Below the pieces are notes generated by a model that saw nothing but the letters and a program-made list of their open reading frames with translations, ran no database searches and was not told the DNA's origin. A program made the translations under genes and the position numbers. A stretch of DNA of 64,000 nt from Dyella marensis (lineage in GTDB: Bacteria; Pseudomonadota; Gammaproteobacteria; Xanthomonadales; Rhodanobacteraceae). The DNA lies in contig NZ_FONH01000001.1 of assembly GCF_900112865.1 (NCBI RefSeq), positions 62,001 to 126,000 on the forward strand. The letters are read 5' to 3'. Of this stretch, positions 6,737-30,737 are shown piece after piece (position 1 is the first letter of the stretch; every line of letters begins with the position of its first letter).

Positions 6737-6879
6737 ATGAAATTTGCAAGAGACCGGGGTGTTTCCATGCGAAGCGCTTACCGCGCGGCGTCCCGACGGC
6801 TCGCCTTGATCCCCTGATCACGTTGCGGCCAGAATGCTGCGGATCGGATATCGATATCCAACCGAGGGTTGCAGCGCCC

Positions 6880-8463: not shown

Positions 8464-8493
8464 GGATTGCTGCGATACACAGAGGACGTGTTC

Positions 8494-9024
8494 TTGGACG
8501 TTTTCGATCTAGCCAAAAACCCCGACCAGATTGGCCCGGACTATCTGTTCCATCTCATCTTCGTGGTGCTCGGCCTGGGCGGGTCGGGCTTCATGCTGTA
8601 CCTGATCCGCAGCGGACGAAAAGGTGCGTGGTTCTATCTTTTGCTTACCGTGGCCATCACGGCGGGCGCGTGCTGGGCGATGCTGCATGAGATCCGTCAT
8701 GCCGGCATGGTGAAGGCGCAAGTCCTGAGTGGCCGCTTTGCCAGCGTCGAGGGTTGCCTCGATCAGTTCCACCCAGGGCTGGCCTCATCGAGCGAGGCCG
8801 ATGCCGGCGTGGAGCAATGGTCCGTGGCGGGGCAGCGGTTCGATTACGCAGCGGACGAAATCCGGCTTGGCTACCATGCGACCGAGCCCGCGGGCGGCAT
8901 GGTCCATGCGGATTCCTGGGTTCGGGTCGGTTATGTCCGTGACGACGTGCTTGCACGCAACGACATCGTACGGCTTGAGGTAACCCGGCATGCGTGTCCG
9001 GTGGCGCCGGATTTCGCCAGGTAG
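8494..9024 (+). CDS. Small hypothetical membrane protein
   Basis: 176 residues from a TTG start at 8494, preceded by AGAGGA seven bases upstream; a TTG at 8467 and a GTG at 8488 are alternatives with worse spacing. Two hydrophobic segments (about LFHLIFVVLGLGGSGFMLYL and WFYLLLTVAITAGACWAML) are followed by a soluble domain of about 110 residues rich in beta-strand pattern (VEQWSVAGQRFDY, SWVRVGYV). The layout, two membrane helices and then a small beta domain, resembles DUF3592-type proteins, but I do not recognise the family securely. It lies 30 bases after the oxidoreductase gene and may be cotranscribed with it. Confidence 0.6.
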   Translation: MDVFDLAKNPDQIGPDYLFHLIFVVLGLGGSGFMLYLIRSGRKGAWFYLLLTVAITAGACWAMLHEIRHAGMVKAQVLSGRFASVEGCLDQFHPGLASSSEADAGVEQWSVAGQRFDYAADEIRLGYHATEPAGGMVHADSWVRVGYVRDDVLARNDIVRLEVTRHACPVAPDFAR

Positions 9025-9153: not shown

Positions 9154-10761
9154 TCACATCCGCATCGTCCGCGATCCGTACAGCCGTTCCGCCGTCAGTC
9201 CGGCTTCCCGGCAGCGACCGATGAACTTGTCGGACTCGACGATCTGCTTGCTCTGCGGGGTGTATTGCAGTCCGGCAACGAAGCGCAGCCAGGGCTCCTG
9301 CCCCATGGCGTAGACATAAGCCGTCTTGCAGCCGATTTCCTCCACGATCCTCCAGGCGTTTTCGCTGCCGGATCCGGACAGACGCCGCGAGTCATCATCC
9401 TTGCGGCTGATCGGCTGGCTCAGATAAGGGCCGTAGAGCCAGGTGAGCGGCGCGCCATCGCATTCCATGCCGATGAACAAGGTATCGACCTTGCCCAATC
9501 TCTGCACGATGCGCCGATAAAGCGCGCGATCCTTGCCGTCGGAGTCCGCCAGGAACATCAGCGTCCTGCCTTGCAAGTCCACATGCAGGCCGTGCTTGCT
9601 GGCAATGCTCAGGTCGGCGTGCTCGCCATAGAAAGGCAAGGCGGTAAGGTGGCCGCCGGGAATCGCGACGCGCTCCATCGGGTCGAGTACCTGCACGCGC
9701 GGCTGGCCGATGGCCTGTAGCGCAAGTTTCATCGACGGGTCGGCAAGACTGTTGGCGTTATTGCGCGGCACCAGGATCGTGCCGATACGGTCGCGCAGCT
9801 GCAGCAGCGTCTCGACGCTGAAATGGTCCTGGTGGTTGTGGGTGAGGAAGACATAGTCGATGCGGTCCGGCAGGTCGTGGAACGTAAGCCGGCCGTCGTC
9901 GCCGTCGTCCCAGGCCAGGAAAGGATCGATCAGCACCGAGACCTCGGCACTCTGCACCAGCACGCAGGCGTGTCCGAAGTAGCGCACGCGCACTCCTTCG
10001 CCAGCAAAATTCGGTTCCTTGCGCGGCGGCGGCGTCTGCGCGAAATAGCCGCGCAGACGCGCGCGCTCTGCATCGCCGTCGACACCCAGCGCATTAGCCA
10101 GGACGCCGAACGGGACCGGCGAGAGTCGGCTGCGGGACACCAGATCGTATGCGGCACTGTCGAACGGCAGCGGCACGACGAAGCGGTCCTCACCGTCCAG
10201 CCGCGGTGTGTTGATGAAGAAGCTGCGTTCCGCGTCCGGCGTCTTGCAGAAGGCGATCTCCTGCGCCGCCGTGCCGGCCAGTTCGCCCCGGTAGATCAAT
10301 TCCTCGAGCACGCGCAGCGAAGGATGGTGATTGAGGTCGTAGTTGGCCTCCACCAGGCCCGCGAGCGATGCGGGCAGCGCACCGTAATGGTGGTCGAGGC
10401 TGAAGCCGGTCTCACTCTTTTGCAGCTGGCGGTCCAGCTTGAGCAGATCTTCGGCGAAGCCGAGCAGATCCGCTCCGCGCGTCAAGATGTCCTGCTGCAA
10501 AGCGCGCACGGCTGGCAGATCACGCTGGCCCAGCTCCAGAAACGACCCGCCAAGCATCTTCGGGTTTTTCCTGGCCGCCTCGTGCACCGCCGGATTGGCG
10601 ACGAACGATTTCAGCATCGGCAGGTGGCGAAAGGCCAGCGACAGCGCCAGTTGCACCGGCGAGACCAGATGGCCCCAGGCATACCAGCGGAAGACCAGCG
10701 GCTCGAGCTTGGTATCGGGTGCGAGGCATACCAGGTCGCTGTCGGCGGCGGTGGCGTTCAT
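9154..10761 (-). CDS. CmlA-like diiron beta-hydroxylase (metallo-beta-lactamase fold)
   Basis: 535 residues from the ATG at 10761, which has a GGAGA site; longer in-frame starts lack one. An N-terminal all-alpha-like domain (about 1-240) precedes a metallo-beta-lactamase domain with THNHQDHF, a PFYGEHADL segment and FLADSDG. Size, two-domain order and these ligand motifs match the CmlA group, in which the fold carries a dinuclear iron centre that beta-hydroxylates an aminoacyl group tethered to an NRPS carrier domain. It is the last gene of the NRPS operon, 82 bases after the reductase gene, which supports that role. An ordinary MBL hydrolase is the alternative. The hydroxylated residue is unknown. 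Confidence 0.72.
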   Translation of the reverse strand: MNATAADSDLVCLAPDTKLEPLVFRWYAWGHLVSPVQLALSLAFRHLPMLKSFVANPAVHEAARKNPKMLGGSFLELGQRDLPAVRALQQDILTRGADLLGFAEDLLKLDRQLQKSETGFSLDHHYGALPASLAGLVEANYDLNHHPSLRVLEELIYRGELAGTAAQEIAFCKTPDAERSFFINTPRLDGEDRFVVPLPFDSAAYDLVSRSRLSPVPFGVLANALGVDGDAERARLRGYFAQTPPPRKEPNFAGEGVRVRYFGHACVLVQSAEVSVLIDPFLAWDDGDDGRLTFHDLPDRIDYVFLTHNHQDHFSVETLLQLRDRIGTILVPRNNANSLADPSMKLALQAIGQPRVQVLDPMERVAIPGGHLTALPFYGEHADLSIASKHGLHVDLQGRTLMFLADSDGKDRALYRRIVQRLGKVDTLFIGMECDGAPLTWLYGPYLSQPISRKDDDSRRLSGSGSENAWRIVEEIGCKTAYVYAMGQEPWLRFVAGLQYTPQSKQIVESDKFIGRCREAGLTAERLYGSRTMRM

Positions 10762-10843
10762 GCTTTCTCCATGGCGAAAATCGGATCGCAGGCTGGGGCG
10801 CGGCGAACGGCGCGCCGGAATCGCGCGTAACGGATGGCGTCGT

Positions 10844-11866
10844 TCACAGCAGCGAGGCTCCTTCCGTATCGCGAACCGCCAGCACGATCTTGCCGATGTT
10901 CCGGTTCTCCTCCATCTCGGCTTGGGCCAGCGCGAGATCGGCAAGGGCATAGGTGGCGTGGATGACGGGACTTATGTCGCCCTGTTGAAGGGGCTTGGCC
11001 CAACGCTGGCGGAAGCGCGCGTTCACGCCGCGCTTCTGGGCCATCGGGCGCAACCGCAGCGACGAACCCTTGATCTGCAGACGGCGCTCCACCAGGAACA
11101 GCAGGTCGATTTCCGCCGACAGTCCGTCCAGCAGTCCCGCCGACACCATGCATCCGCCAGGGCGAAGCGCGCGAAGGTTGCGCTCCAGATACGCACCTCC
11201 AACGAAATCCAGGACCAGCGCAACGCCCTCGCCGCCGGTCAGGCGCAGCACCTCGGCGAGGAAATCCTGTGTCCTGTATTCGATGACGTCCGCGGCGCCG
11301 AGTCCGCGCAGCGCCTCGGCCTTGGCCCGGGAGCCGACGGTGCAGATCGGCCGCGCCCCGGCGTGCAAGGCCATCCGCATCGCCGTGGTGCCGATACCGC
11401 TGGCGCCGGCGTGGATAAGCACACTGTCGCCCGGCGCCAGGCCGCCGAGTTCGAACAGGGTTTCGTTGCAGGTCAGAAAGGACTCGGCCGTCGCCGCGGC
11501 CTCTTCGAAACCCACTCCGTCGGGAATCGGGTTGGCCATGAGGCGGTCCAGCAGGCAGAACTCGGCGAAGCCGCCGCCTTCTACCACGCCGTAGACACGC
11601 TGGCCGCGGGAGAAACCCGAGACATGCTCGCCCCAGGCTTCCACCGTGCCCGCGATTTCCACGCCGGGAATGGTCGATTGCCCGGCGGGTATCTCGTATT
11701 CCCCTTCGCGTTGCAGCACGTCGGCCCGGTTGAGGGCGCTGGCATGCACCTTCACCAGCAGCATGTCCGGCGTGCACACCGGCATGGGCAGCTCGCGCCG
11801 CGCGATGACATGCGGACCGCCGGCGCCTTCGTAGACCATCGCCAGCATCCGCTCAGTATCCGGCAT
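10844..11866 (-). CDS. NAD(P)H:quinone oxidoreductase / enoyl reductase-type MDR enzyme
   Basis: 340-residue zinc-free medium-chain dehydrogenase/reductase of the PIG3 quinone-reductase group. Landmarks are the MLAMVYEG...G start, ALNRADVLQREG, PGVEIAGTV and the nucleotide-binding stretch VLIHAGASGIGTTAMRMA. No structural or catalytic zinc ligands are present. Members reduce quinones or alpha,beta-unsaturated carbonyls. Starts at 11866 and 11881 are both possible; both overlap the end of the MaoC gene, indicating coupled translation. In this operon it most plausibly reduces an enoyl intermediate that follows or precedes the hydratase step, which is inference. Confidence 0.82.
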   Translation of the reverse strand: MPDTERMLAMVYEGAGGPHVIARRELPMPVCTPDMLLVKVHASALNRADVLQREGEYEIPAGQSTIPGVEIAGTVEAWGEHVSGFSRGQRVYGVVEGGGFAEFCLLDRLMANPIPDGVGFEEAAATAESFLTCNETLFELGGLAPGDSVLIHAGASGIGTTAMRMALHAGARPICTVGSRAKAEALRGLGAADVIEYRTQDFLAEVLRLTGGEGVALVLDFVGGAYLERNLRALRPGGCMVSAGLLDGLSAEIDLLFLVERRLQIKGSSLRLRPMAQKRGVNARFRQRWAKPLQQGDISPVIHATYALADLALAQAEMEENRNIGKIVLAVRDTEGASLL

Positions 11867-12386
11867 GGTCTTCAGTCTCATGGCCGCGCGTCGGCACCAG
11901 GAAGCTGCGCTCGAACGTGAGGAATACTTCGCCCGTGGACAGCAGCCCCCGCGTCAGGCAACTGACGATCCCCGCGCCCGGTCGGGTCTGCGAAAGCCGC
12001 TTGGCCAGGATCTCGCTCTCTGCATAGATGGTGTCGCCGGCGAAGACCGGGTGGGTGAGGCGCACCTTGTCCCAACCCAGGTTGGCGAGCGCGCGGCCGC
12101 TGGTGCTGCGCACGCTCATGCCGCAGACGATGCTGAAGGTCACCAGGCTGGACATCAGTGGCCGTTTCCACGGCGTATGCGCGCAATACTCGGTATCGAT
12201 GTGCAGCGGCGAAGGGTTCATGCTGAATCCGGCCATCCACAGATTGTCCGATTCGCCCAGCGTGCGTCCTGGACGGTGCTCGAACACGTCGCCCGGGCGG
12301 AAGTCGTCGTAGCAAAAGCCGATGACCTCGCGATAGCGGTGCTCGCCGACGGCCCGGTAACCCCATAAACGATCGTCTCGATCCAT
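11853..12386 (-). CDS. MaoC-family hydratase, mesaconyl/itaconyl-CoA hydratase-like
   Basis: 177 residues from the ATG at 12386, preceded by AGGAGAG; an ATG at 12419 that overlaps the previous stop (ATGA) would add 11 residues. The hot-dog fold hydratase motif is clear: FRPGDVFEHRPGRT, ESDNLW, NPSPLHID, and then ANLGWDKVRLTHPVFAGDTIYAESE. This long-form signature resembles C4/C5-dicarboxyl-CoA hydratases (mesaconyl-, itaconyl-CoA) rather than short R-specific enoyl hydratases. It is paired in the operon with a CitE-like lyase, the partner such hydratases have in itaconate and mesaconate metabolism. The real substrate may be a CoA- or carrier-bound precursor of the NRPS product. Confidence 0.8.
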   Translation of the reverse strand: MDRDDRLWGYRAVGEHRYREVIGFCYDDFRPGDVFEHRPGRTLGESDNLWMAGFSMNPSPLHIDTEYCAHTPWKRPLMSSLVTFSIVCGMSVRSTSGRALANLGWDKVRLTHPVFAGDTIYAESEILAKRLSQTRPGAGIVSCLTRGLLSTGEVFLTFERSFLVPTRGHETEDHAGY

Positions 12387-12415
12387 GCTCAAGCGCTCTC
12401 CTGACGGCATCGGGC

Positions 12416-13648
12416 TCATGCGCTGGCCATCAGTGATTCGACGGCATCACAGAAATGATCCAGGCGGTCGGCTTCCAGATCGGCGCGAAGCATCACCCGG
12501 ACGCCGGCCGCACCTCGCGCGACGATCGGGAAGAACACCGCCGAGCAGTAGTAGCCGGCCTGATAAAGCTGTTCGGACAAGCGCACCGCCAGATCCTCGT
12601 CGCCCACGTCGATCAGGCGGATGGGCAAGCCGTTGCCTGAGAAGCGGGTGGGGAACCGTCGATCGAAGACATCGATGTTCCGCTGCAGCTTCGCCTGCAG
12701 CTGGCCGAGTTCCGCCGTGCGGTGCAGTTCTGCGCTCGCGAGGCAGGCGCCTACCGCGGCCACATCCATGTTCTGCGACCAGGTCACCGGACCCGCATTG
12801 CGATAGAGGAACTGGAAATCGCGCTCGCTGCCGAGCATGGCGACGCCGCCCGACGCACCGAAAGCCTTGGCCAGGGAGCCCACGATCATGGTCAAGGGAT
12901 TCATCTCCATCCTGGAACGGACATAGCCCTCGCCATGCGGGCCCTCGATCGACAGCGCATGGGAGTCGTCGAAATAGAGGAACAGTCCGTAGCGATCCTG
13001 CAGCTCGATCAGGCCCTCCAGCGCGGTGCGTCCGCCCATGGAATAGGCACCGTCGGCGACATAGGCCACGCGCGGGTATTTCTTGCAGATGTCCTCCAGA
13101 TAGTTCAAGTCGTTGTGCGGGCAATTCAGCACCAGGGCTTCGTCCCCGCAGATGGGCTTGATGTAGGCCATCGAGAAGTGACAGAAGCGGTCGAAGACCA
13201 TCACTCGCGGTCCGCTGCCGCCGCCGATGTGTCCGGAGGCGATCAGGGGCAGGATGCCGGCGGTGAGCACGCTGCAGCTCACCCCGGGCAGCGCGGGCGC
13301 GCCATAGAGATCGCGCAGGCTTTCCTCCAGTTCGACCAGCAGGTTCAGCCGGACCCGCACTTCCGCGATCGACAGCCCGGTGGTCCCGGCCTTGCGCAAC
13401 GCGGACACCGCGCCCTCGATGATCTTCGGGTGGTGGTTCAGGCCCAGGTACGAGCAGGAGCACAGCAAGGTGAATTCGTGCCCGCTATCGCGGACGATCA
13501 GGCGATCGTTGGACTCGTGGTCGACCTGGATATTGAGCAATCCGCTGTCAGCCGCGCGCAGCCACACCCGCTCGCCATGGGCGAGCATGGCTTCGGCATT
13601 CCGATAACGACGCGGTCCGACGATTTCGTTCGAGTCGCTCTGGTCCAT
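12416..13648 (-). CDS. Alpha-oxoamine synthase (PLP-dependent, KBL/AONS type)
   Basis: 410-residue fold-type I PLP enzyme. The start at 13648 is fixed by an AGGAG site six bases upstream. Diagnostic motifs are LGLNHHP, DDSHALSIEGPHG in the cofactor-binding region, and the Schiff-base lysine in MIVGSLAKAFGASGG. The family (8-amino-7-oxononanoate synthase, 2-amino-3-ketobutyrate ligase, serine palmitoyltransferase, 5-ALA synthase) condenses an amino acid with an acyl-thioester, losing CO2, to give an alpha-aminoketone. It lies between the deiminase-fold gene (80 bases) and the MaoC gene (abutting). An aminoketone could serve as the amine that accepts the peptide chain from the terminal C domain; that is inference. 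Confidence 0.85.
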   Translation of the reverse strand: MDQSDSNEIVGPRRYRNAEAMLAHGERVWLRAADSGLLNIQVDHESNDRLIVRDSGHEFTLLCSCSYLGLNHHPKIIEGAVSALRKAGTTGLSIAEVRVRLNLLVELEESLRDLYGAPALPGVSCSVLTAGILPLIASGHIGGGSGPRVMVFDRFCHFSMAYIKPICGDEALVLNCPHNDLNYLEDICKKYPRVAYVADGAYSMGGRTALEGLIELQDRYGLFLYFDDSHALSIEGPHGEGYVRSRMEMNPLTMIVGSLAKAFGASGGVAMLGSERDFQFLYRNAGPVTWSQNMDVAAVGACLASAELHRTAELGQLQAKLQRNIDVFDRRFPTRFSGNGLPIRLIDVGDEDLAVRLSEQLYQAGYYCSAVFFPIVARGAAGVRVMLRADLEADRLDHFCDAVESLMASA

Positions 13649-13728
13649 GGCGGTCTCCTGGCTGATGGGTGTCGGCGATGCGCCCGGACGGCGCGCCGAT
13701 GCGTAGGGAAAGGGCGGCACGGGACGGC

Positions 13729-15057
13729 TCATCCGCGCTCCAAAGGCAAGGTCAGGCAGTGCGGCCCGCCCCACCACGGCCACAGATCGCGGCCGTCGAA
13801 GGCCTGCACATCGACACCCCGGGCTTGCAGCGCCGCATGGGTGCGCGGCGCATCGGCATACGCGAGCACCCGGCCGGGTGCGGTAGCCACCAGATTCGAT
13901 GCTTGCTTGTCGTGCTCGGCGAGCACCACGCGGAAGAAATGCTCCAGGTCGAGTGCATCCGCGGCGCCGCCGACGAAGTCCACCTGCCACCCCCATGCGC
14001 GGACCAGGTCCACCAGCTTCATGCCTTCGCAGCTGTCATCCACATCGCCGCTTCCGGCCCGGTAGCGACGAACCCATCCGATGCCCGCCAGGTTGGCGAC
14101 GGCGGCATCCGCCTGCTGAGCGTCCACGGTGGGCTCCACCAGCAAGCCTTTGAGAAACCGGGTCAGCGGGTCCCGGCCCGCATATCCGGCTTCGAGGAAA
14201 TAGGGCAGGGCGACCGCGAGCTTGTGGTCCACACGTGTGAAACAGCTGTCCAGGTGCAGGAACATATGCGCCAGGACGCTATCGTCCGGCTTCCACCGCA
14301 CCGTACTGTCGCCGCGCATCCGCACGGCGATCACATCCATGTCGAGCCGCCTGGCCAACAACGGGGCAACGCGCGGATCCGTGCAATGGCCCACCCCGAC
14401 CAGCAGAGTTCGCTCGTCTACGACCTGCAGGTCTCCGCCCACCAGGCAAAGCCCCGCTTCGAGGGCGTCGAACAGCACGGGATATTCGCGCAGCGAGGGC
14501 GAGAATTCCGCCGCGAACCGCATGAGCGAAGCCTCGCCTCGCCGCGAAGGCGAGATGAAGTTGCCGAGTATCCATCCGCGTGGCGTCATGACGGCCAGGT
14601 CACGGGTGAAAGCAAGCCCGAGACGGTGATCGACGATATGGCGGTAGACACCCTCGGCATCGGTCTGGAACTGCACGTGCCCGGCCCGGGCCAGCAGCGT
14701 TGCACCGGTCGCCGAGCCGGCCCAGGGCGCGAGCCGGGGCAGGGCGGCGCGCAGCCAGGTCGCGAACTGTCCTTTCCGGCGGGCTTCCTCGATCGCTTCG
14801 TCCAGCAACCGCTCCATCGAGAGCACTTCCGCGCCGGAGGCCGCAAGCAGGCGTTCGAGTTCCCCGTGCTGTCGCGCGGCCGCTACCGGTGGCGGGTTGT
14901 AGTGCAGGAAATTGCCGGTTGCGACCTCAAGGTGATAGTCGGCGGGCGACGGTGCATTCACGATCACACGCCGCAATGGCGCGATGTCGGAAACCACATA
15001 CGGCGTCGCCGATACGGCGGCCTCCTCGAACGGCACCCTGTGCGTCAGGCGATTCAT
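13729..15057 (-). CDS. Arginine deiminase-fold (pentein) enzyme with altered active site
   Basis: 442 residues from the ATG at 15057, which overlaps the stop of the CitE gene (ATGA). The pentein pattern of arginine deiminases is present in order: FTRDL, VGGD, HLDSCFT and a C-terminal nucleophile Cys in GGPHCLTLPLER. Two positions normally conserved in arginine deiminase differ: Glu of EGGD is Val, and the Arg-containing loop (G-x-x-R-T) reads GVGHCTD. Cys, His and the Asp residues persist, so catalysis on an amidino-type or related group is still possible, but free arginine as substrate is doubtful. In the NRPS operon it may act on a guanidine of an intermediate or transfer one. Confidence 0.75.
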   Translation of the reverse strand: MNRLTHRVPFEEAAVSATPYVVSDIAPLRRVIVNAPSPADYHLEVATGNFLHYNPPPVAAARQHGELERLLAASGAEVLSMERLLDEAIEEARRKGQFATWLRAALPRLAPWAGSATGATLLARAGHVQFQTDAEGVYRHIVDHRLGLAFTRDLAVMTPRGWILGNFISPSRRGEASLMRFAAEFSPSLREYPVLFDALEAGLCLVGGDLQVVDERTLLVGVGHCTDPRVAPLLARRLDMDVIAVRMRGDSTVRWKPDDSVLAHMFLHLDSCFTRVDHKLAVALPYFLEAGYAGRDPLTRFLKGLLVEPTVDAQQADAAVANLAGIGWVRRYRAGSGDVDDSCEGMKLVDLVRAWGWQVDFVGGAADALDLEHFFRVVLAEHDKQASNLVATAPGRVLAYADAPRTHAALQARGVDVQAFDGRDLWPWWGGPHCLTLPLERG

Positions 15058-15941
15058 GCCTGGCCCATGTTCGCGGGTTCCGCGTAATAGCCCGTGGCCA
15101 TCGGCCGTGGCGCGTCGAACTCTTGCAGCAAGCGCCGGGCGGATTCGATGAACGGCGCGCCGACGGCGATTCCATCGATCAGGCATATGCCACTGCCGTC
15201 GCGGGCGCTCGCGGCGACCAGGCGCCTTGCACGATCGATGTCATCCTGACTCGGCGAAAAAATCTCATTGATGATCGGCACCTGGCATGGATGCACCGCG
15301 CCCATGCCGCTGTAGCCGAGCTCGCGGGCGCGCCTGGCCGCGATCGTCAAGCCTTCCGCGTCGCGGACATCGAACCAGGGCGAATCGAGGGGATGCAGAC
15401 CCGCGCCGCGCGTAGCGGTGGCCAGGCGCGAGCGCGCGTAGTGTTGCGACTGCCAATCGATCGACATGCCGGTGGTGAGCGCGAAATCGGCGGCCCCGAA
15501 AATCGTCGCGGTCAAACGGGCCCGCGTGGATACCGTGGCGGATATGTTCTCGATGCCCAGCGGCGTCTCGATGATCGCAATCAGCTCGACCCCGTCCCCC
15601 AGCAGGCTCCCGGCGATCTCCAGATCGCGCGGCGATTCGACCTTGGGAACCATCACCACTTCGGGCTTGTACGGACAGCCGCACAGCGCCAGCAGATCGA
15701 GCAGTCCGTCGGCGCTGCCCAGGTTGTTGATCCTCACCGCGCGCCGGCACGAAGTTATCGGTGGCCTGGAGAAGAAAGCCACGGCCCGGTTCCTGGCCTC
15801 GGCCTTATGGACCGCGGCGACGGAGTCCTCAAGATCGATCAATGCGATATCGGCGTCCGCGGCGTCCGCGTTGACCGATCGCTCGGCCACCAGGGCGGGC
15901 GTGAAGAGGATCGATCGGCAATAACGGCTGAACTTTTTCAT
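15054..15941 (-). CDS. CitE-like HpcH/HpaI family lyase
   Basis: 295-residue (beta/alpha)8 enzyme of the citrate-lyase beta-subunit-like group, which cleaves or forms malyl-, methylmalyl- or citramalyl-CoA by retro-aldol/Claisen chemistry. Motifs are RSILFTPA, IALIDLEDSV, VPKVES, AIIETPLGIENI (metal-binding Glu region) and FGAADFALTTGM. The start at 15941 has a GGTGG site; longer frames lack one. It lies 111 bases downstream of the NRPS with the vestigial A domain and overlaps the deiminase-fold gene. Paired with the MaoC hydratase it could generate or break a C4-C6 dicarboxyl building block. Confidence 0.82.
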   Translation of the reverse strand: MKKFSRYCRSILFTPALVAERSVNADAADADIALIDLEDSVAAVHKAEARNRAVAFFSRPPITSCRRAVRINNLGSADGLLDLLALCGCPYKPEVVMVPKVESPRDLEIAGSLLGDGVELIAIIETPLGIENISATVSTRARLTATIFGAADFALTTGMSIDWQSQHYARSRLATATRGAGLHPLDSPWFDVRDAEGLTIAARRARELGYSGMGAVHPCQVPIINEIFSPSQDDIDRARRLVAASARDGSGICLIDGIAVGAPFIESARRLLQEFDAPRPMATGYYAEPANMGQA

Positions 15942-16052
15942 GTTCACCACCCATCGGCTGACAACTCTCTCTGAGTTGAAATGCCGGCTCTGTGCTGCAT
16001 GCGCAGAGCCGGGACGCATCCCGCGACCTCACCCGCCGGCGCCAGGCCGCCG

Positions 16053-19000: not shown

Positions 19001-21170
19001 ACAGGGTGCGTACGCCGGCCAGGCAGTCCGGCATGTCGGCGATAAGGCGAAACAGCGCGGTGGTCAGGAACAGCGCCGTGACCTGTCCCTCCACGATCGT
19101 TCGCGCCAACGCGTCGATATCGGTCTTGCCCGGCGGGGCGATCACGATCTCGCGCCCACTCAGCAAAGGCACCCAGATTTCGTAGGTGGACGCGTCGAAG
19201 ACCTGCGGCGAGTGCAACAGCACGCGCAGTTGGCGCTCGTCTTGCCAACGCCGGTCCAAAGCCAGATCCAGCACGTTGCGATGGGTGACCGCGATGCCCT
19301 TGGGCAAGCCGGTCGAGCCGGAGGTATACATCGCATAGGCCAGATGGGCCGCTTGCAATGCGTGCCCGGGCGCGGTCCGCGGCTGCTGCGCGATTGCCTC
19401 GGCTTCTTCCTCCAGCACGACCAGCGCTCCCCAGTGCGCGGGCAGCCGATCGACCAGCTCCGCCTGCGTGACCAGCACCGGCGACATGGTCTCGCCCAGC
19501 ATCTGCGCCAGGCGCTCGGCCGGGTAATCCGGATCCAGCGGCAGATAGGCGGCGCCCGCCTTGACGATGGCCAGGGTGGCCGTCAGCAGTGCGGGCGAAC
19601 GCTCCAGGCACAAGCCCACCAGCACATCCGGTCCTACGCCCAGCGACTGCAAGTGGTGCGCGAGACGATTAGCGTCCGCGTCGAGCTCGCCATACGTCAC
19701 CGCCCGTTCGCCGGCCCGCATCGCAATCGCATCGGGCGTGCGCGTGGCGACGGCGGCGAAAGCATCGGCCAGATTGTCCGCGGGCACCGGGTGAGCCGTC
19801 GCGTTCCAGTTTTCCAGCACATGCCGGCGCTCGGATTCCTCGAGCAGGTCGATCCGGTCCAACGGCAGATCCGGCTGCCCGGTGGCTTCCGATAGCAGCC
19901 GCAAAAACCGGTCGACCAGACGTTGCGCGGTGTCCGGCTCATACAGGTCGAGCGCGTATTCCAGGTCGCAACTCAGTCCCGTGGGCGCACCATCCTCGTC
20001 GAATGCTTCGACGAAGCCGAACCCAAGATCGTATTTGGCAACGGCCACGTGCATGAAATCGAAAGTCAACTGCAAGTCCGCGAAATCGCTCGCGGCGGAA
20101 GCATTGTTATTGAGCACCAGCGCGACCTGAAACAAAGGGTGCGCGCCCTGGGTACGCAGCGGATTGACTGCCTCGACGACGCGTTCGAAGGGCAGCGCCT
20201 GGTGGGAAAATGCCGCCAGATCGACACTGCGCGCGCGGCGGAGCAGTTCGCGGAAACTTGGATTGCCCGAGGTATCCGTGCGCAGCACCAGCAGGTTGAC
20301 GAACAGGCCGACCATCGCCTCCATCGCTTCGTCGTCGCGACCAGCCACGGAAGTGCCGATCGGCAGATCCTCGCCCGCGCCATGCAAGGACAACAGCGCC
20401 GCCACCGCGGCGTGCAGCGCCATGAACAAGCTTGACTGGGTCTCGCGGGCCAGCTCGCGCAGACGGCGGTGCACCGATGCGGAAACCTTGAAGACAACGC
20501 TCGCCCCGCGGTGGCTGGCATGCGCAGGGCGCGGCCGATCGGCGGCGATCGTCAGCTGCTCCGGCAGACCGGCCAGTGTCGACGTCCAGTAGGCGATCTG
20601 GCGCGCCACGCTGCTGTCCGGATCGCGCTCCTCGTTCATCCATTCGCGTTGCCACAGGCTGTAATCCGCATACTGCACCGGTAGCGGCTCCCACGCCGGC
20701 GCCTGGCCGCGGCGGCGCGCCGCGTAGGCAGTCGCCAGGTCGCCGATGAGCGGCGCCAGCGAACTGCCATCGCTGGCGATGTGATGCAACAGCAGCAACA
20801 GGACATGCTCGTCCGGCCGCAGCCGGAACAAGGTGGCGCGGATGGGAATTTCTGTAGCCAGATCGAAGACGTGTTCGGCCGCCTGCCGTTGCGCGGCTTC
20901 CAATGCGCCGGCATCGACCTCGCGCAGCTCGAATGGAACCCGGGCCTGCCCGGCGCCGCGCACGATCTGCCGGCCCACGCCGTCGACGTCGGCGAACACG
21001 GTGCGCAGGCTTTCATGTCGGTTTGTCACGTCATCCAGCGCCGTCTGCAGCGCGTTCGCGTGCAGCACGCCGCGCAACCGCAGCAGCAGCGGCACATTGA
21101 ACAAGGTGTTCGGGCCCTGCAGCTGCTGCAGGAACCAGAGCCGTTGCTGGGCGTAGGACAAGGGGATCAT
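16053..21170 (-). CDS. NRPS: C-A-T-C plus vestigial A domain
   Basis: 1705-residue non-ribosomal peptide synthetase. Domains by eye: C1 (1-440; [19 protein letters not shown]), A (about 455-940; [35 protein letters not shown]), T (LGGDSI, carrier Ser1002), C2 (about 1040-1480; [19 protein letters not shown]). The final stretch of about 180 residues matches only the A6-A7 part of an A domain (GALYLAG, YRTGDL) with no substrate-binding half, no A10 and no carrier. There is no thioesterase or reductase. The specificity positions read by eye are D-A-Y-F-W-G-V-T-F, closest to the branched aliphatic (Ile/Val) codes. Its ATG overlaps the stop of the previous NRPS gene. C2 probably performs chain release onto an amine. 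Confidence 0.93.
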
Positions 21171-24100
21171 GAGGGAGATTCCGTGGCGCGCATGGGTCGC
21201 AGCGGCGCACGGGCAGGGCGGCGCGTCGTCTCCATCCGTGCCGCGAGCTGGGCGACCGTCGGCGCGTCGAAAATATCGGCCAGCGGTACCTCGGCGCTCA
21301 TGACGCTGCGGATGCGGGAGATCAGGCGCGCCGCCAACAGGGAGTGGCCGCCCAGTTCGAAAAAACTGTCGTCCACGCCGACCTGGTTCAGGCCTAGCAC
21401 TTCGGCGAACAGGCCCGCCAGGACCTGCTCTTGCGGCGTGCCCGGCGCACGCACCTGGGTGCGGTCGAAATCCGGCGCAGGCAAGGCTCGATGATCGAGC
21501 TTGCCGTTGGCGGTGAGCGGCAGCGCGGGTAGCGGCACGATCGCAGCCGGCACCATGTAGGCGGGCAGACGCTCGCCGAGCACCCGGCGCAAGACGACGG
21601 TATCCAGCGTCAAGTCTGGCGCGCCAACGATGTAGGCCACCAATTGCTTTTGTCCGGGCCGATCCTCGCGAACGACCACCGCCGCCTGCCTCACGCCACG
21701 CTGGGCAAGCAGGGCCGTTTCGATCTCCACCGGTTCGATGCGAAAACCGCGCAGCTTCACTTGCCGATCCGCGCGTCCGACGAAGTCCAGCGTCCCGTCC
21801 GCGCGCCAGCGCACCAGGTCGCCGGTGCGATACAGACGCTCGCCGGCATGGAACGGATTCGCCACGAAGCGCTCCGCGGTCAACGCGGGACGCGCCAGAT
21901 AGCCGCGGGCGAGGCCGGACCCGCCGAGGTACAACTCGCCCACCTGGCCGACCGATGCCAGTTGCAAGGCGCTATCGAGCACGTAGGCGCGCATGTTGTC
22001 GATCGGCGCACCGATGGGCAGGGCTCCGGCCGGTTGCGATCCGGCGCGCATGGGGTGCAGGGTGGCGAACGTCGTCGTTTCGGTCGGACCATAGGCATTG
22101 CACATGGTCAGTTGCGGACAGGCTGCCAGCAGCTTGGCGACGTGCGGTGGCGACAATACTTCGCCTCCGGAAATGACCCGCCGCAGACCACTGAAGGATT
22201 CCACGTGGTCGTCGACCATCAGATGGAACAAGCCCGCCGTGACCCATAGATCCGTGATCCCGCCCTCCACGACGGCGCGCGCCAGCTCCCGGGCGCCGAT
22301 CTTGCCGCGCGGAGCGACGACGATCCGCCAGCCGCGCAGCAGCGGCACCCAGATCTCGAAGGTGGAAGCGTCGAACGCCAAGGGCGCATGCAGCAGCAGG
22401 CGTCGCTCGTCGCTCTCCTGCCAGCGGCGGTCGAACGCAAGATCGACCACGTTGCGATGCGTGACCACGATGCCCTTGGGCGCGCCGGTAGATCCCGATG
22501 TGTAGGTGGCGTAAGCCAGATGCCCGGCCTGCAGCCCGTGCGGCGGCGCCAGCTCCGGCTGCGCATCGATCTCCGCCTCGTGTTCCTCCAGAACCAGCAA
22601 CACGCCCCAGTGCACCGGAAGCCGGTCGCGAAACGCCGTCTCGGTGAGCACGATGGGCGCCATGCTTTCGTTGAGGATGGCGGCGAGCCGCTCGGTGGGA
22701 TGCTCCGGGTCCAGCGACAAATAGGCGCCGCCCGCCTTGAGGATGGCCAGCATGGCCACCAGCAGGTCCAGCGAACGCTCCATACACAGCCCTACCAGCA
22801 CGTCCGGGCCGACGCCCAGGCCTTGCAGATAGTGCGCGAGCCGATTGGCGCGGCGATCGAGTTCGCCGTAGTTGAGCGTGCGCTCGCCGTCGGACGCGAC
22901 GACGGCATCCGGATGGCGCGCCGCCTGCGCCGCGAACAGATCGGGCAGGGTGCCGGACGGCACGGATCGAGCGGTGCCATTCCACTTGTTCAGCAGGCGA
23001 TCGCGTTCTTCTTCGCCGAGCAGGTCGACACGACTCAAAGGCAGATCCGGCCGCTTCGTCACCGTCTTGATCAGGCGCGCGAGTTTTTCGGCGAAGCCGT
23101 CGACGGTGACGCGGTCGTAGAGATCGACCATGTACTCGATGTTGCATGAAAGTCCGCGCGCGCTTCCGTCGGGATCCGACTGCTCGACGAATTCGAACGT
23201 CAGGTCGTACTTGGCGGTGCCCAGAGGCAGGAATTCCGTGCGCACCGCCAGGTCCGGCATCGAAACGCTGGCGTCACGGTTGTTCTGCAGCACCATCGCC
23301 ACCTGGAATAAGGGATGCTGCGACGATTGGCGCAACGGATTGACCATGTTGACCAGGCGTTCGAACGGCACCTCCTGGTGCGAATAGATCGCCAGGTCGG
23401 TTTCACGCACCCGGTCGAGCAGTTGATGGAAGGAGGGATCGCCGGAAGTATCGGTGCGCAATACCAGCAGGTTGACGAAGAAACCCACCAGGTTGTTCAA
23501 GGCCTCGTCGTGGCGCCCGGCTACCGAGGTGCCGATGGGCAGATCGGTTCCGCCGCCCAGCTTGGTCAACAGCGCGGCGACCAGCGCGTGCAAGACCATG
23601 AACAGGCTGCAGCGGTGCTGGTTCGCCAGCTCGCGCAAGTCGCGCAGCACCTTGGGGCCGAAGTCGATCTCGACGCTGTCGCCGGCGTGGACCGTCCTGG
23701 CCGGGCGCGGGCGATCCGTCGCTAACCCAATCTGCTCGGGAAGTCCGACAAGATTGTCTTTCCAGAACGCGAGCTGCCGCGCGATGTCGCTGTCGGGATC
23801 GGATTCCTGGGCCATCCACTCCTGCTGCCACAACGAGTAGTCGGCGTACTGCACCGGCAACGGCGCTTGATGCGGCGCCTCGCCCTGACGGCGGGCGGCG
23901 TAGGCGACGCCCAAGTCCTCAATCAAGGGCGCCCAGGACCAGCCATCGCTGGCGATATGCTGGACCAGCAACACCAGCGTGTGGCGGCGAGGCGCCGACC
24001 GGAACAGCGCGGCGCGTAGCGGAATATCCCGGGTCAGGTCGAAGCGGTATTCGGAGAATGCTCTTGCCGACTGCGCCAACGTTTCCTGGGAAGCATCGAT

Positions 24101-24346
24101 CCGCTCGAAGGTCAGTTCGACCGCGGCGGGATCGAGCACGATCTGCTCGCCCACGCCGTTCGCTTCACGGAAGATGGTGCGCAGCGTTTCGTGCCGGACA
24201 ACCACGTCGCGCACGGCGGCCTGCAAGGCGTCCGCGTCCAGCTCGCCTTCCAGGTGCAATGCCAATGGCACATTAAACGTGGTGCTGGGACCCTCGAGCT
24301 TGTGAAGGAACCATAGGCGCTGCTGGGCCAGGGACATGGGGATCAT
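21167..24346 (-). CDS. NRPS: C-A-T elongation module
   Basis: 1059-residue single-module NRPS. The ATG at 24346 ([14 protein letters not shown]) overlaps the upstream NRPS stop (ATGA), which decides the start against a longer frame. C domain (about 1-440) has QHIASDGWS in place of the canonical HHxxxDG, with the second His and Asp kept. The A domain (about 460-950) has [32 protein letters not shown] and NGKLD. The T domain carries LGGHSLLA with carrier Ser1002. The specificity positions read by eye are D-A-F-W-I-G-A-T-F, one change from the well-known valine code D-A-F-W-I-G-G-T-F, so Val or a close analogue is predicted. It accepts the N-methylated residue from the starter module. Confidence 0.95.
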
Positions 24347-27300
24347 TGGGCAGACTCGCGTGGTTGCATGCGGCGCAAGCGCAGGCGGGTGGAATGGCGC
24401 GCATGGGCCAGCTGTTCGGCCAGCGCAGACAGGGTAGGAGCCTCGAACAGGGTGCGGATCGGAACATCCACATGGAGCGCGTCGCGCATGCGGCTCGCGA
24501 GCTGGATCGCCAGCAGCGAATTGCCGCCGAGCTCGAAAAAGTGATCGCTGCGTCCGACTTGCCAGACCCCCAGCAGGCTCTCCCACAGCTCCGCCAGCAG
24601 TTGTTCGACATCGCCCTGCGGCGGCTCGTAGGCGCGGCGCAGCACGGCGGCACCGGTCGGCGCAGGCAAGGCCTGGCGATCGAGCTTGCCATTGGCGGTA
24701 AGCGGCAACTCGGCCAGCACGACGATCGAGCCGGGCAGCATGAAAGAGGGCAGGTGTTCGCCGAGGCGTTCCCGCAGCGCAGCCACGTAACCGCGATGGT
24801 CCTGCATGGCGCCAGGGTCGTGGCAGAGCGGCGAGCCGGCTGCGATGGTCGGCGCGAGATACAGGCTGTCGAGCGCGGCGCCACGCGCGTCGGACACAGG
24901 CAGGAACACGGCGTCGAAATGTCGGCCGGTGCGGTCCGGCGACCAGGTTACGGCCATCTGGTAGCCGAGCTCGGCTCCGAGCGTCCTCAGGTCCTCGGGG
25001 TCGACGGCAGGCGCCGATGCATCTTCGCGTCCGCCCCAGATCCGGTGCGAGATCTCGAACTCGCTCGTCAATCGAGCGTTGACGATGGCGCTTACCCGCA
25101 GACCTTCAGAACGCACAGCCAACAGGCGTTGACGCAGCGACGCCAACGTATCGATGTCGCGCCCCCACGCCAGGGTGGGCAGCGCGGCGGCGGAATGCAC
25201 GGGTGTGCCGCGCATATGCAGCACGACGTCGTAGCGATAGCGCGTCATTTCGTTGCGGGCGCGCCCCCGTTTGAGCTGGATGTCGACACCGACCAGATCG
25301 CCGATCTGTTGCGGCAGCGCCGAAAAATAGCCTGGATCGACCAGCATCTCGTTTTCCAGCCGCATTTCCTCTTCGGCCACGTGGCGAATGGCGCGCGAAT
25401 CGCCGCCGCCAGCCCGGTGCCAGGCGACGGATGTGGCGAAGCAGCGCATGAGGCGGAAATCGGGCACGTCGCCGATCAACATGCGCCCACCTGGGGCCAG
25501 CAGCGCCGCGCACTGCCGCAGCACCGCGCTCAGGTAGCCGGCGCCGGGAAAGTATTGCAGGACCGAATTGATGACGATGGTATCGAAACCGCCCATCGGC
25601 AAATCGCCGATCTCATGCGCAGGCTGGCAACGCAGATCCACGCGCTCCCGCAGCTGCGGATGGCCCGCCACGCGCGCCTTCAGGGAATCGATGACCGGCA
25701 GCGAAAAATCCGTGCCGCAATAAAAGGCGCAATGCGGCGCCACTTTCCACAGGATCAGGCCAGTGCCGACGCCAATCTCCAATAACCGCTGCGGTCGCAG
25801 GTCCAGGATCTTGCCTACGATCGCATCGCGCCATTCGCGCATCTCTTCCAACGGGATCGGAGCGCCGTCGTAGCTGCTGTCCCAGCCCCCGAAATCCTCG
25901 TCATCCGCCAGCTCCGCGTGCTGGCTGTACAGGCCGTCGTGCAATACCTGCCACTGCTCCACCTGTTGCATCTCGTAGCCCGCATCGCGCATCGCCTCCT
26001 GCCGCCCATGCTTCGGCACGACGTAGCCGACCAGTTGCCGGTGGCCGATACGATCCTCGCGCATCAGCACGGCCGCCTGCGCCACGGTGGCGTCGCGCCT
26101 CAGCCAGGCTTCGATCTCTTCGAGTTCGATGCGCAAGCCATTGAGCTTGACCTGCTGATCGGCGCGGCCGACGAAGCACAGCGAGCCATCCGCTAGCTGC
26201 CGCACGACATCGCCGGTCCGATACATGCGGGCGCCCGGAGGGCCGAACGGGTCGGGATGAAAGCGGGCCGCCGTCAAACCGGGGCGTTGCAGGTAGCCGC
26301 GCGCCAGGCCCGGGCCGGCCAGATACAGTTCGCCTTCGTCGCCTTCCGGCACACGCCGCAAGGAGGCGTCGAGAATGTATGCGGCCGCGTCAGAGACCGG
26401 GCTTCCGATGGGTACGGCGGCCTTCGCCTCGGTGTCGATCGGCGCTGAAATCAGTGCATCGACGGTAGCCTCGGTCGGTCCGTAGCAATTGACCAGGCGA
26501 TGCATGCGAGCCCACTTGGCGGCAAGTTCCGCCGGACACGCCTCACCGCCCACGACCAGGGTCTCCACACCCGGAAGATCGCCGGGCGTCATCAACGCCA
26601 ACAGACTCGGCGGCAGCGCCAGATGGGTGATGCGCTGTCGCTCGCACAGCGCCGCCAGGTTCGTGCCAGGGAGCAGATCGTCAGACGGAGCCATGACCAG
26701 ACGCGCGCCGAGCGCAAGCGCCATGGCGATCTCCGCGAAAGAGGCGTCGAAGGATAGCGACGCAAACTGCAATACGCGGCTTTCCGGTTCGATGCGCAGC
26801 CGCTCGCGGTAGGTGGTCACCAGCGCGGCGACGCCGGCATGGGTCGCCACCACGCCTTTGGGTTGGCCCGTCGAACCCGAGGTATAGATCACATAGGCGG
26901 CGTGTTGCGCGGCCTTCGCATCGTGCGCGATCCCGATCCGGGAGGGCGGCAGCGCTTCGATCTCGGCTCGGATATCCGCATCGTCCAGAAGATAGACGGG
27001 CAGGGCAGGCGGCGTCTTCAAGACCGTCTCCCGGAACCCGAGCACGCAAGCCGGAGCCGCGTCTTCAAGCATGTAGATCAGCCGCTGCTCGGGATAATCA
27101 AGATCGAGCGGCAGATAAGCAGCGCCGAGCTTGTGCGCCGCCAGGATCGCCACGATCGATTCGAACGATCGCGGCAGTGCTATAGCGACGATATCTTCCG
27201 AGCGAATGCCTTTTTCGGACAGCCACGCGGCCAGGCGGTTGGCGCGCGCATCCAATTCGCCATAACTCAAGCTGGCATCGCCAAAGACCAGCGCAACGGC

Positions 27301-27417
27301 ATCCGGGGTCAGCTCGACCTGCCGCTCGAACAGCGCGGCAAAACTGACGTTGGGAAGACCCTGTTGCGGGGCCTTCGGCACGTCAATGTAAGCGCCATCG
27401 AGCGAGAACCCTTCCAT
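24343..27417 (-). CDS. NRPS: A-N-methyltransferase-T starter module
   Basis: 1024-residue initiation module without a C domain. The A domain opens at about residue 25 (YIDVPKAPQQG...; YTSGSTGQPKG; FDASFAEIA; NCYGPTEATV; YRTGDV). A methyltransferase is inserted between A8 and A10: the SAM loop LEIGVGTG lies near residue 541, and NSVLQYFP is the motif typical of NRPS N-methyltransferases. The C-terminal T domain has LGGNSLLAIQL with carrier Ser967. The specificity positions read D-A-A-A-V-G-C-V-D, which I cannot assign to an amino acid. The module should load and N-methylate the first residue. It follows the MbtH gene by 92 bases in the same operon. Confidence 0.94.
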   Translation of the reverse strand: MEGFSLDGAYIDVPKAPQQGLPNVSFAALFERQVELTPDAVALVFGDASLSYGELDARANRLAAWLSEKGIRSEDIVAIALPRSFESIVAILAAHKLGAAYLPLDLDYPEQRLIYMLEDAAPACVLGFRETVLKTPPALPVYLLDDADIRAEIEALPPSRIGIAHDAKAAQHAAYVIYTSGSTGQPKGVVATHAGVAALVTTYRERLRIEPESRVLQFASLSFDASFAEIAMALALGARLVMAPSDDLLPGTNLAALCERQRITHLALPPSLLALMTPGDLPGVETLVVGGEACPAELAAKWARMHRLVNCYGPTEATVDALISAPIDTEAKAAVPIGSPVSDAAAYILDASLRRVPEGDEGELYLAGPGLARGYLQRPGLTAARFHPDPFGPPGARMYRTGDVVRQLADGSLCFVGRADQQVKLNGLRIELEEIEAWLRRDATVAQAAVLMREDRIGHRQLVGYVVPKHGRQEAMRDAGYEMQQVEQWQVLHDGLYSQHAELADDEDFGGWDSSYDGAPIPLEEMREWRDAIVGKILDLRPQRLLEIGVGTGLILWKVAPHCAFYCGTDFSLPVIDSLKARVAGHPQLRERVDLRCQPAHEIGDLPMGGFDTIVINSVLQYFPGAGYLSAVLRQCAALLAPGGRMLIGDVPDFRLMRCFATSVAWHRAGGGDSRAIRHVAEEEMRLENEMLVDPGYFSALPQQIGDLVGVDIQLKRGRARNEMTRYRYDVVLHMRGTPVHSAAALPTLAWGRDIDTLASLRQRLLAVRSEGLRVSAIVNARLTSEFEISHRIWGGREDASAPAVDPEDLRTLGAELGYQMAVTWSPDRTGRHFDAVFLPVSDARGAALDSLYLAPTIAAGSPLCHDPGAMQDHRGYVAALRERLGEHLPSFMLPGSIVVLAELPLTANGKLDRQALPAPTGAAVLRRAYEPPQGDVEQLLAELWESLLGVWQVGRSDHFFELGGNSLLAIQLASRMRDALHVDVPIRTLFEAPTLSALAEQLAHARHSTRLRLRRMQPRESAQ

Positions 27418-27509
27418 GGCCCATGAACCTCTTGTCGCCCTTGAACGGGCATGTTTGGTTCAATCGGTATGCCGACGTGTTGCTGCTATCGGCGTCCAGT
27501 TGCGTTTCT

Positions 27510-27728
27510 CTAACCGCTCGGATGCTCCATCGCCGCGACAAGGCTCCTGGGGCGCATATCGGTCCAGCTACGGTCCACATAGTCCATGCAGGCCGCTCGC
27601 GCCTCTGGCCCGAAAGCCGTAGTCCAGCCCGCCGGAATTGCCGCAAAATCAGGCCAAAGCGAATGCTGGCCTTCGTCGTTGACGAGCACCAGGAAGGTGC
27701 CCTTGTCGTCATCGAATGGGTTGCTCAT
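27510..27728 (-). CDS. MbtH-like protein
   Basis: 72-residue MbtH-family partner of NRPS adenylation domains, needed by many A domains for solubility and activity. The sequence shows the family signature: [44 protein letters not shown], with the conserved Trp residues in place. The ATG at 27728 has a GAAGGA site four bases upstream. It is the first gene of the NRPS operon, so the operon promoter should lie in the 27729-28240 gap. Confidence 0.95.
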
Positions 27729-28240
27729 GAGTTCCTTCTCCTCGCACCATTTGCCGCGATCATTTTCAATGACACTGTTAACAGCGTGACGAAAATATGA
27801 AATCGGTAGGCGCCCCATCCTGGATACGCGCGGGGTGCAGCAAATCAATATCCGCCGACGAGATGTGGCTGTCAATCGATACGCCGAATTGAGGAGCCCA
27901 GTAATAAGAGCCTGCAGGTCGCGCCCTACAACCACCGGCGGCCCCACCATTCGCCTGGTATGAAAACACCTGCTCAGGCAGATGTTTTAGCGTCCTGGCC
28001 TGGGCAGGATTCGCCGCCGGGGAAGGCCTGGCACCCCGATAAACACCCGTTTGAAAATGGCGATCAATGCATAGCCGAATGCTGCATGTCCCTGCCTGCC
28101 AGACGGCCCGATCCTTGCTCCACTATCGAACTGCAGCCACCGCACGCCCTTGCCCGCCACAGCGAGGCCTGGCGGCGTGAACGGATGCGCCGGCACCGGC
28201 GAAAACCGACCGAGGTGTGCGGCGGTCGCTTACCGATCGG
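27729..28240. other. Promoter region of the NRPS operon, 512 bases
   Basis: Gap between mbtH (minus) and the end of the amidohydrolase gene (minus), so it should contain the NRPS operon promoter. GC drops near 27755-27800, with A/T-rich stretches and the palindrome listed separately. A 153-residue plus-strand open frame from 27960 runs into the amidohydrolase gene and has no recognisable features; I do not call it a gene. Confidence 0.5.
27775..27784. promoter_or_regulatory. CTGTTAACAG palindrome upstream of mbtH
   Basis: Perfect 10-base palindrome, extendable imperfectly on both sides (CAC...GTG), 47 bases upstream of the mbtH start in the A/T-rich part of the promoter gap. It is a candidate operator for the NRPS operon; no regulator gene for it is recognised in the operon. 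Confidence 0.35.
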
Positions 28241-30653: not shown

Positions 30654-30737
30654 GCGGTGTTCCCCGATGCGCGACACAGTTGATCTCAGAACGAGGCTAC
30701 CGGATCAAATGCGGCAATGCGAATAATGACCAAGGGC

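Follow-up and report, generated by a model that had tools for sequence, protein, structure and literature searches.

A Dyella operon that may join a nonribosomal peptide synthetase line to a ketomethylene pseudodipeptide pathway

The window analysed here is a stretch of 64,000 nucleotides from Dyella marensis (RefSeq assembly GCF_900112865.1, contig NZ_FONH01000001.1, positions 62,001 to 126,000 of the forward strand). It contains an operon of ten genes on the minus strand (9154-27728). The gene order is MbtH; three nonribosomal peptide synthetase (NRPS) genes; an HpcH/CitE-like lyase; an enzyme with an arginine deiminase (ADI) fold; an alpha-oxoamine synthase (AOS); a MaoC-type hydratase; a PIG3/QOR-type medium-chain dehydrogenase/reductase (MDR); and a CmlA-type diiron hydroxylase. 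An initial annotation, made from the sequence alone, had described a colinear operon with these domains, and all of them were found with Pfam and NCBIfam. In this study, we describe the operon and its relatives and propose that it may encode a pathway in which an NRPS-made tripeptide is coupled to a ketomethylene pseudodipeptide. The five genes from the CitE-like lyase to the MDR are referred to below as the cassette.

The first gene encodes an MbtH-like protein of 72 amino acids (27510..27728, minus strand as for all genes below; PF03621, 97 bits), which starts from ATG at 27728 and is 92, 65 and 63% identical to the copies of three relatives. It is followed by NRPS1 (24343..27417), an initiation module with adenylation (A), N-methyltransferase (nMT) and thiolation (T) domains, and by NRPS2 (21167..24346), with condensation (C), A and T domains. 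In NRPS3 (16053..21170), a C-A-T module is followed by a terminal C domain (16671..17993) and a remnant of an A domain (16056..16658). The C, A and T domains were assigned with Pfam and a motif scan, whose narrow patterns missed some motifs. The start of NRPS2 is 24346, replacing the listed GTG at 24586, and the listed open reading frames (ORFs) also began too early for AOS, CmlA, CitE and MbtH; the higher coordinate given for each gene of the operon is its corrected start. The ATGA overlaps that had been said to link several genes were located at four joins, namely NRPS1/NRPS2, NRPS2/NRPS3 (so that NRPS2 overlaps at both ends), CitE/ADI and AOS/MaoC.

The A1 code read from the alignment is DAAAVGCVDK, from which residue 1 cannot be called. 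The A2 code, DAFWIGATFK, is Val-like, differing by one letter from a Val code. The A3 code, DAYFWGVTFK, is listed as Val in an excerpt of PMC9113097. Together with the nMT domain in NRPS1, the two Val-like codes agree with the N-methylated, mostly aliphatic tripeptide that the initial annotation had predicted.

The distribution of the operon was examined with the ADI-fold protein, which was matched in 9 of 197 family genomes at E <= 0.001. Four matches were strong (E < 1e-200), including the window's own; the other five were short and weak, and at least one of them was to a genuine arginine deiminase (L008). At class level, only the window's own genome among 369 was matched at E <= 1e-20. The strong carriers are the window's genome, Dyella sp. 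SG609 (G053) and D. subtropica RXD159 (G040), both of the window's genus group, and D. tabacisoli L4-6 (G002), which belongs to the same family and a different genus. The initial annotation had let its proposal depend on conserved co-occurrence of the NRPS and tailoring genes, and such co-occurrence was found. With the 197 family genomes searched, the order MbtH, NRPS3, CitE, ADI, AOS, MaoC, MDR was identical in all four carriers. The shared cassette order exceeds chance. NRPS1 and NRPS2 adjoin NRPS3 in three of the four clusters, being fused in D. tabacisoli, and the hydroxylase lies directly behind the cassette in two. AOS was found in 3/6 genus genomes and in 3/369 class genomes (the window's own, G265 and G291). 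The 5.1 Mb genome of D. tabacisoli gave 119 match stretches to the A, T and methyltransferase parts of NRPS1, which points to very many NRPS modules.

D. subtropica carries a second locus, on contig C11 (L050 and L051, joined coordinates 10323-29175), which encodes MbtH (63% identical to that of the window), two NRPS proteins and a hydroxylase (75%), and in which the cassette queries found no match. One NRPS protein, of 2130 amino acids, has the domains A-nMT-T-C-A-T, and the other, of 3480 amino acids, is C-A-T-C-A-T-C-A-T-TE, its thioesterase (TE) being identified from its sequence (GWSIG). The first part of the 3480-amino-acid protein is 61% identical to NRPS3. All four NRPS3 copies share their A3 code with the first A domain of this protein, and modules 1 and 2 have codes similar to those of the cassette-less line. 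The next code, DFWNIGMVHK, has been reported for Thr-type substrates (excerpt of PMC12283262), and the last, DAWQFGLIQK, differs in a single letter from a Gln code reported in part of PMC2866473. These codes suggest that the C11 line makes an N-Me-X-Val-Val-Thr-Gln-like pentapeptide. In the window, as in the three other carriers, the line stops after the fourth C and an A-domain remnant (about 200 amino acids in the window), and the window's cassette sits between the NRPS and the hydroxylase, where the closing modules would be expected. Compared with the C11 line, it lacks modules 4 and 5 as well as the thioesterase, and no T or TE lies behind the last C of NRPS3. As the lines with and without the cassette agree in the A3 code and nearly agree in the codes for residues 1 and 2, no A domain remains for loading a cassette product.

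The hydroxylase (9154..10761) is regarded as an accessory enzyme of the FrsH/CmlA type. It has a CmlA_N domain (236 bits) and the metallo-beta-lactamase (MBL)-fold motif HNHQDH, so that the beta-hydroxylase named in the initial annotation is present. Against the PDB, it scored 772 bits to 8a90, which we take to be FrsH, and 338 bits to CmlA (4jo0). FrsH hydroxylates a T-bound leucine on an NRPS, as stated in a passage of PMC7794379. The window's enzyme may beta-hydroxylate a Val. The A2 code is Val-like in the three clusters having NRPS2 and the hydroxylase, and is DGYFLGGAAK in the one with NRPS2 that has no adjoining hydroxylase. This pattern hints, in a small number of clusters, that residue 2 is the hydroxylation site.

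Hydroxylase matches at E <= 1e-50 were obtained in 15 of the 197 family genomes, 12 of them outside the genus. In all six loci taken from these (L079-L084, one each from six of the 12 genomes: G012, G020, G103, G080, G021 and G028, which represent several genera), the NRPS ahead of the hydroxylase ends in T-TE, as judged by motifs. Queries of the type found in the ketomemicin (ktm) clusters described below had no match in the examined stretches of these TE-ended loci. The closest TE-ended lines, C11, L079 and L080, have homologues of MbtH, A-nMT-T and the hydroxylase.

The terminal C domain of NRPS3, the proposed release and coupling domain, has the motif NHAVLDG with the second His retained. 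Identity between NRPS3 and the C11 line is 61% for C, 71% for A and 71% for T; for the terminal C, it is only about 50%, whether C4 or C5 is compared. The terminal C is 74-90% identical to those of the other three carriers, and the four copies form a clade with support of 96/100. The A domain is equally conserved among carriers (75-91%), so that this conservation alone is unremarkable; what stands out is the contrast with the C11 line. The divergence fits an altered acceptor without proving it. Behind the terminal C, the remnant aligns with the C-terminal portion of A domains; it lacks their front portion, and no T comes after it. Its dN/dS ratio (omega) is 0.27, 0.36 and 0.39 in three comparisons, whereas C1, A and C2 gave 0.13-0.22 and T gave 0.10-0.36, which points to relaxed selection on the remnant. 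Its frame is open in all four copies, so it may retain a structural or docking role. The remnant is no nearer to A4 than to other A domains, so that a replacement of exactly two modules is only presumed.

The cassette consists of the HpcH/CitE-like lyase (15054..15941; RipC_Ccl 225.6 bits, cut-off 375), the predicted guanidine-modifying enzyme with the ADI fold (13729..15057; PF02274, 92 bits), AOS (12416..13648; PRK07505 497 bits, cut-off 342), the MaoC-type hydratase (11853..12419; RipB_Ich 211 bits, cut-off 340) and the PIG3/QOR-type MDR (10844..11866; TIGR02824 338 bits, cut-off 296.8). The RipB and RipC matches raised the identity of itaconate-degradation enzymes. Both scores are well under the curated cut-offs, and a role in itaconate catabolism was set aside for this reason. 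A related explanation is that a TE-ended pathway is decaying at this locus and that an unrelated itaconate-type catabolic operon has landed next to it, for which the RipB/RipC-like matches and the raised omega of the A-domain remnant could be cited. However, the scores fall far under the cut-offs, the arrangement is common to four genomes, and the NRPS3 domains of the other three carriers have open frames compared with the window, at a synonymous divergence (dS) of 0.25 to 1.6 and an omega of 0.10-0.39. We consider such decay very improbable.

An AOS profile search of genome contigs gave ten loci: three in Dyella relatives, four in Streptomyces/Kitasatospora (L020-L023), and L024-L026. In the class to which L021 belongs, 3 of 394 genomes had the AOS (L021's own, G652 and G703). 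In L020-L023, adjacent CitE, AOS and MaoC proteins are 45-46%, 64-65% and 63-65% identical to those of the window. In L021, a zinc-type MDR and a PreATP-grasp/PGM1_C ligase come next, in divergent arrangement, and all five genes occur in L020-L023. For the Pfam scan, the Streptomyces ORFs were chosen with a codon-composition filter. The best NCBIfam model was identical between Dyella and L021 in four of four cases (RipC_Ccl, PRK07505, RipB_Ich and quinone_pig3). In the AOS tree, the window's enzyme grouped with L020-L023 with support of 94/95, slightly below the threshold of the tool. The closest PDB structures to AOS are 8xha, 8xhd, 8i7u and 8xhk. The window's MaoC and HpcH proteins keep the invariant columns of alignments of 11 and 10 rows, respectively, the window's row counted.

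The order of steps to ketomethylene units reportedly runs, after Kawata et al. 2017 and Ohuchi et al. 1984, from aldol reaction through dehydration and reduction to decarboxylative condensation with arginine. According to passages of PMC11943689 (2025), the ktm genes encode an aldolase, a pyridoxal phosphate (PLP)-dependent C-acyltransferase, a dehydratase, an ATP-grasp ligase, an amidinotransferase and a dehydrogenase; the same passages describe the pathway as independent of ribosomal and NRPS routes, and name ketomemicins and arphamenines as the only natural ketomethylene pseudopeptides known. A KtmB-type condensation and units of arginine and phenyl type are supported by an excerpt of PMC9239090. 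As L020-L023 also carry the PGM1-type ligase, they match the set ktmA-B-C-D-F. In family terms, the CitE-like enzyme, AOS, MaoC and MDR of the window correspond to the carbonylmethylene sub-pathway of ketomemicin (ktmA, B, C and F, respectively; for the MDR, a KtmF-like role is proposed). The initial annotation had known of no characterised pathway with this set; these four genes do not support the view that it resembles none. It had also joined the peptide to a non-peptidic unit made by the lyase, hydratase, reductase and AOS. The joining is retained here, and because of the correspondence with ktmA, B, C and F the unit is better read as a pseudodipeptide.

Starting from the observed genes, their conservation, the shortened NRPS and the family matches, we infer the reactions, substrates and product of an NRPS-ketomethylene hybrid pathway, to which we give a probability of about two in three. 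NRPS1-3 would assemble N-Me-X1-Val-Val on their carrier domains, and the FrsH/CmlA-type enzyme would beta-hydroxylate one T-bound residue, perhaps Val2. The CitE-like enzyme would join a carbon unit derived from acetyl- or malonyl-coenzyme A (CoA) to a 2-oxo acid (an aryl- or alkylpyruvate), giving a 2-substituted malyl-CoA. This would be dehydrated by MaoC, and the resulting enoyl-CoA would be reduced by the MDR to a 2-substituted succinyl-CoA. The AOS would then carry out a decarboxylative condensation of the latter with an amino acid, which is arginine in the known cases. The predicted product, H2N-CHR-CO-CH2-CHR'-COOH, would be a dipeptide with its amide replaced by CO-CH2. The terminal C of NRPS3 could use the free amine of this pseudodipeptide as the acceptor for the tripeptidyl thioester, and such coupling would release the chain without a thioesterase. 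The ADI-fold enzyme would probably modify the guanidino group of an arginine-derived residue. The final product would be a pseudopeptide of pentapeptide length in which the bond joining positions 4 and 5 cannot be cleaved; it would probably be a protease inhibitor, maybe of a new type.

The cassette might instead build an unusual acyl starter for the N-terminus, as in a lipopeptide. CitE, MaoC and MDR would be able to build acyl-CoAs, and the cassette cluster of D. subtropica opens with a C domain. However, the first C of NRPS3 falls among internal C domains, and the TE-ended line has a close equivalent of it in the corresponding position; the lines of the window and Dyella sp. SG609 begin with A-nMT-T, with no starter C. 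An acyl starter would also leave the AOS, the absent TE and the orphan terminal C unexplained, and we regard it as unlikely. Another possibility is that AOS itself off-loads the chain by condensing an amino acid with the peptidyl thioester on NRPS3, with CitE, MaoC and MDR serving otherwise. Stand-alone PLP C-acyltransferases are thought to be active in several natural-product pathways, as a portion of PMC9239090 has it, and NRPS1-3 lack a TE. This explanation, which appears improbable to us, gives no reason for the conserved clade of the terminal C, nor for CitE, MaoC and MDR always being linked in the four carriers, as CitE, AOS and MaoC are in L020-L023.

The ADI-fold enzyme has nine PDB matches at E <= 0.01, all named arginine deiminases. 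The catalytic Asp/His/Asp/Cys are retained in all four carriers, in which the FTRD, HLD and HC.T motifs align with the deiminase L008, the single reference of the residue comparison (arcA 491.3 bits, cut-off 489.1; full-length alignment with 1rxx). All four have lost the Glu of EGGD and the Arg of SERT, as well as an Asn and the Arg that stands five positions ahead of the Cys; compared with L008, SERT is changed to GHCT or GHFT and GRGGGHC to WWGGPHC or WCGGPHC. The column of R185 retains Arg in all four. In the arginine deiminase of P. aeruginosa, R243, R401 and N160 presumably hold the arginine backbone. Since most of the arginine-backbone contacts are lost, it is unlikely that the enzyme is a deiminase of free arginine. 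Our guess is a substrate that lacks the usual carboxylate, for instance an aminoketone derived from arginine, which would fit. In a variant of the hybrid pathway, the odds of which overlap with those given above, the ketomethylene route stands and the ADI-fold gene encodes an amidinotransferase that replaces KtmE, rather than a side-chain hydrolase. A passage of PMC11943689 places the amidinotransferase gene ktmE in ktm clusters, and the Cys/His/Asp core is retained in the window's enzyme, but the structural matches and the aligned motifs are those of deiminases, and we hold the variant to be possible, if rather doubtful.

Taken together, a fuller form of the hybrid pathway can be drawn, which we offer tentatively and at somewhat less than even odds. 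In it, the closing modules (two, if the D. subtropica yardstick is right) and the thioesterase would have been swapped for an off-line isostere pathway, and the orphan C would have been retuned to the isostere nucleophile. The ADI-fold enzyme would edit an arginine-derived side chain lacking the carboxylate, and the A-nMT-T-C-A-T protein of D. subtropica may feed both TE-ended and cassette-ended lines.

Several points weigh against the hybrid pathway. The link to ketomemicin runs through the gene set and family models rather than through proven ktm sequences. RipC_Ccl and RipB_Ich scored below their cut-offs in both Dyella and L021, and quinone_pig3 in L021 reached 178.9, under its cut-off of 296.8. 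The MDR and its L021 counterpart share only 35% identity over 246 amino acids, and the two CitE-like enzymes 45%. The L021 ligase, of the KtmD type, had no match in the window at 1e-5, where the NRPS is present instead. CitE-AOS-MaoC triads in which neither NRPS nor ligase queries matched were found at L024, L052, L053, L057 and L058, and thus the triad alone is no proof of a peptide isostere, as other uses exist. The ADI-fold enzyme is at most a candidate replacement of KtmE. Matches to PF02274, a model that may not cover ktmE-type enzymes, numbered 0, 1, 0 and 1 in the genomes of L020-L023, with none shown near the cluster, and a structure prediction from the four sequences gave a predicted local distance difference test (pLDDT) score of 36.5. 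No thioesterase appears in the Pfam tables of NRPS1-3, and a trans-acting one was not searched for. In D. subtropica, the NRPS3 of the cassette cluster has no NRPS1/2 beside it; the A-nMT-T-C-A-T protein of contig C11 may serve it in trans. The window's remnant is 36-41% identical to several A domains with none clearly closest, and the L079 line has a single module after its matching C (48% identical). Since the remnant and the terminal C are about equally near to several domains of the C11 line and L079 has one module, the number of lost modules is only something we infer.

Among the triads, those of L052 and L024 lie in proteobacterial genomes of about 2 Mb, and a gene of the OCD/mu-crystallin family was observed near the triad in L024, L052 and L058.

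Upstream of MbtH, also on the minus strand, lie an amidohydrolase gene (28241-29746), whose best NCBIfam model is Xaa-Pro dipeptidase, far below its cut-off, and a LysR gene (29760-30677, identified with Pfam and NCBIfam). The operon had been said to have no accompanying regulator, and the LysR gene just upstream on the same strand speaks against this. For both genes, no match above 38% identity was found in 39-kb stretches of the other three carrier genomes. Downstream of the hydroxylase (6823-9024), a Gfo/Idh/MocA-family protein and a protein of 185 amino acids are encoded; among the three relatives, they had matches (88% and 79%) in Dyella sp. SG609 only.

A literature search of open print, which leaves subscription journals mostly uncovered, did not find a union of NRPS and ketomethylene pathways. 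As far as the literature shows, the ketomethylene sub-pathway is already known in kind; new would be its combination with an NRPS whose closing modules it replaces. If true, the operon and its relatives would form the first family of NRPS-ketomethylene hybrids. Ketomethylene isosteres serve in medicinal chemistry as replacements of the scissile amide; here, bacteria would have fitted a modular peptide line with a preformed isostere, and the operon would offer a natural blueprint for replacing the terminal part of an NRPS by a free acceptor of two residues. It would also define a family of probable protease inhibitors, which could be searched for as a terminal C without A-T-TE next to CitE-AOS-MaoC.

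Among known systems, the ketomemicin pathway of actinomycetes resembles the window in the HpcH aldolase, PLP C-acyltransferase, dehydratase and, putatively, dehydrogenase steps that lead to a carbonylmethylene unit. It differs in having an ATP-grasp ligase, whereas the window, in Gammaproteobacteria, has an NRPS with MbtH instead, and also an extra hydroxylase; the equivalence of the ADI-fold protein to KtmE is only putative, and its matches are deiminases. Arphamenines of Chromobacterium violaceum are ketomethylene pseudopeptides that likewise come from a Gram-negative producer. They are free pseudodipeptides and, unlike the predicted product of the window, are not known to have an NRPS part; the literature search found no paper on an arphamenine gene cluster. 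The hydroxylase-linked NRPSs of the family, in C11 and the six non-genus genomes, have upstream modules that are recognisably of the same line, but they finish in T-TE, unlike NRPS3. The nearest solved relative of the window's AOS by sequence is Alb29, the albogrisin AOS (8xha), which condenses L-glutamate with acyl-CoAs according to a passage of PMC11906848 and belongs to another pathway with a different substrate set. The window's hydroxylase is similar in sequence to FrsH and CmlA; FrsH acts on leucine, whereas the window's enzyme adjoins a Val-Val line.

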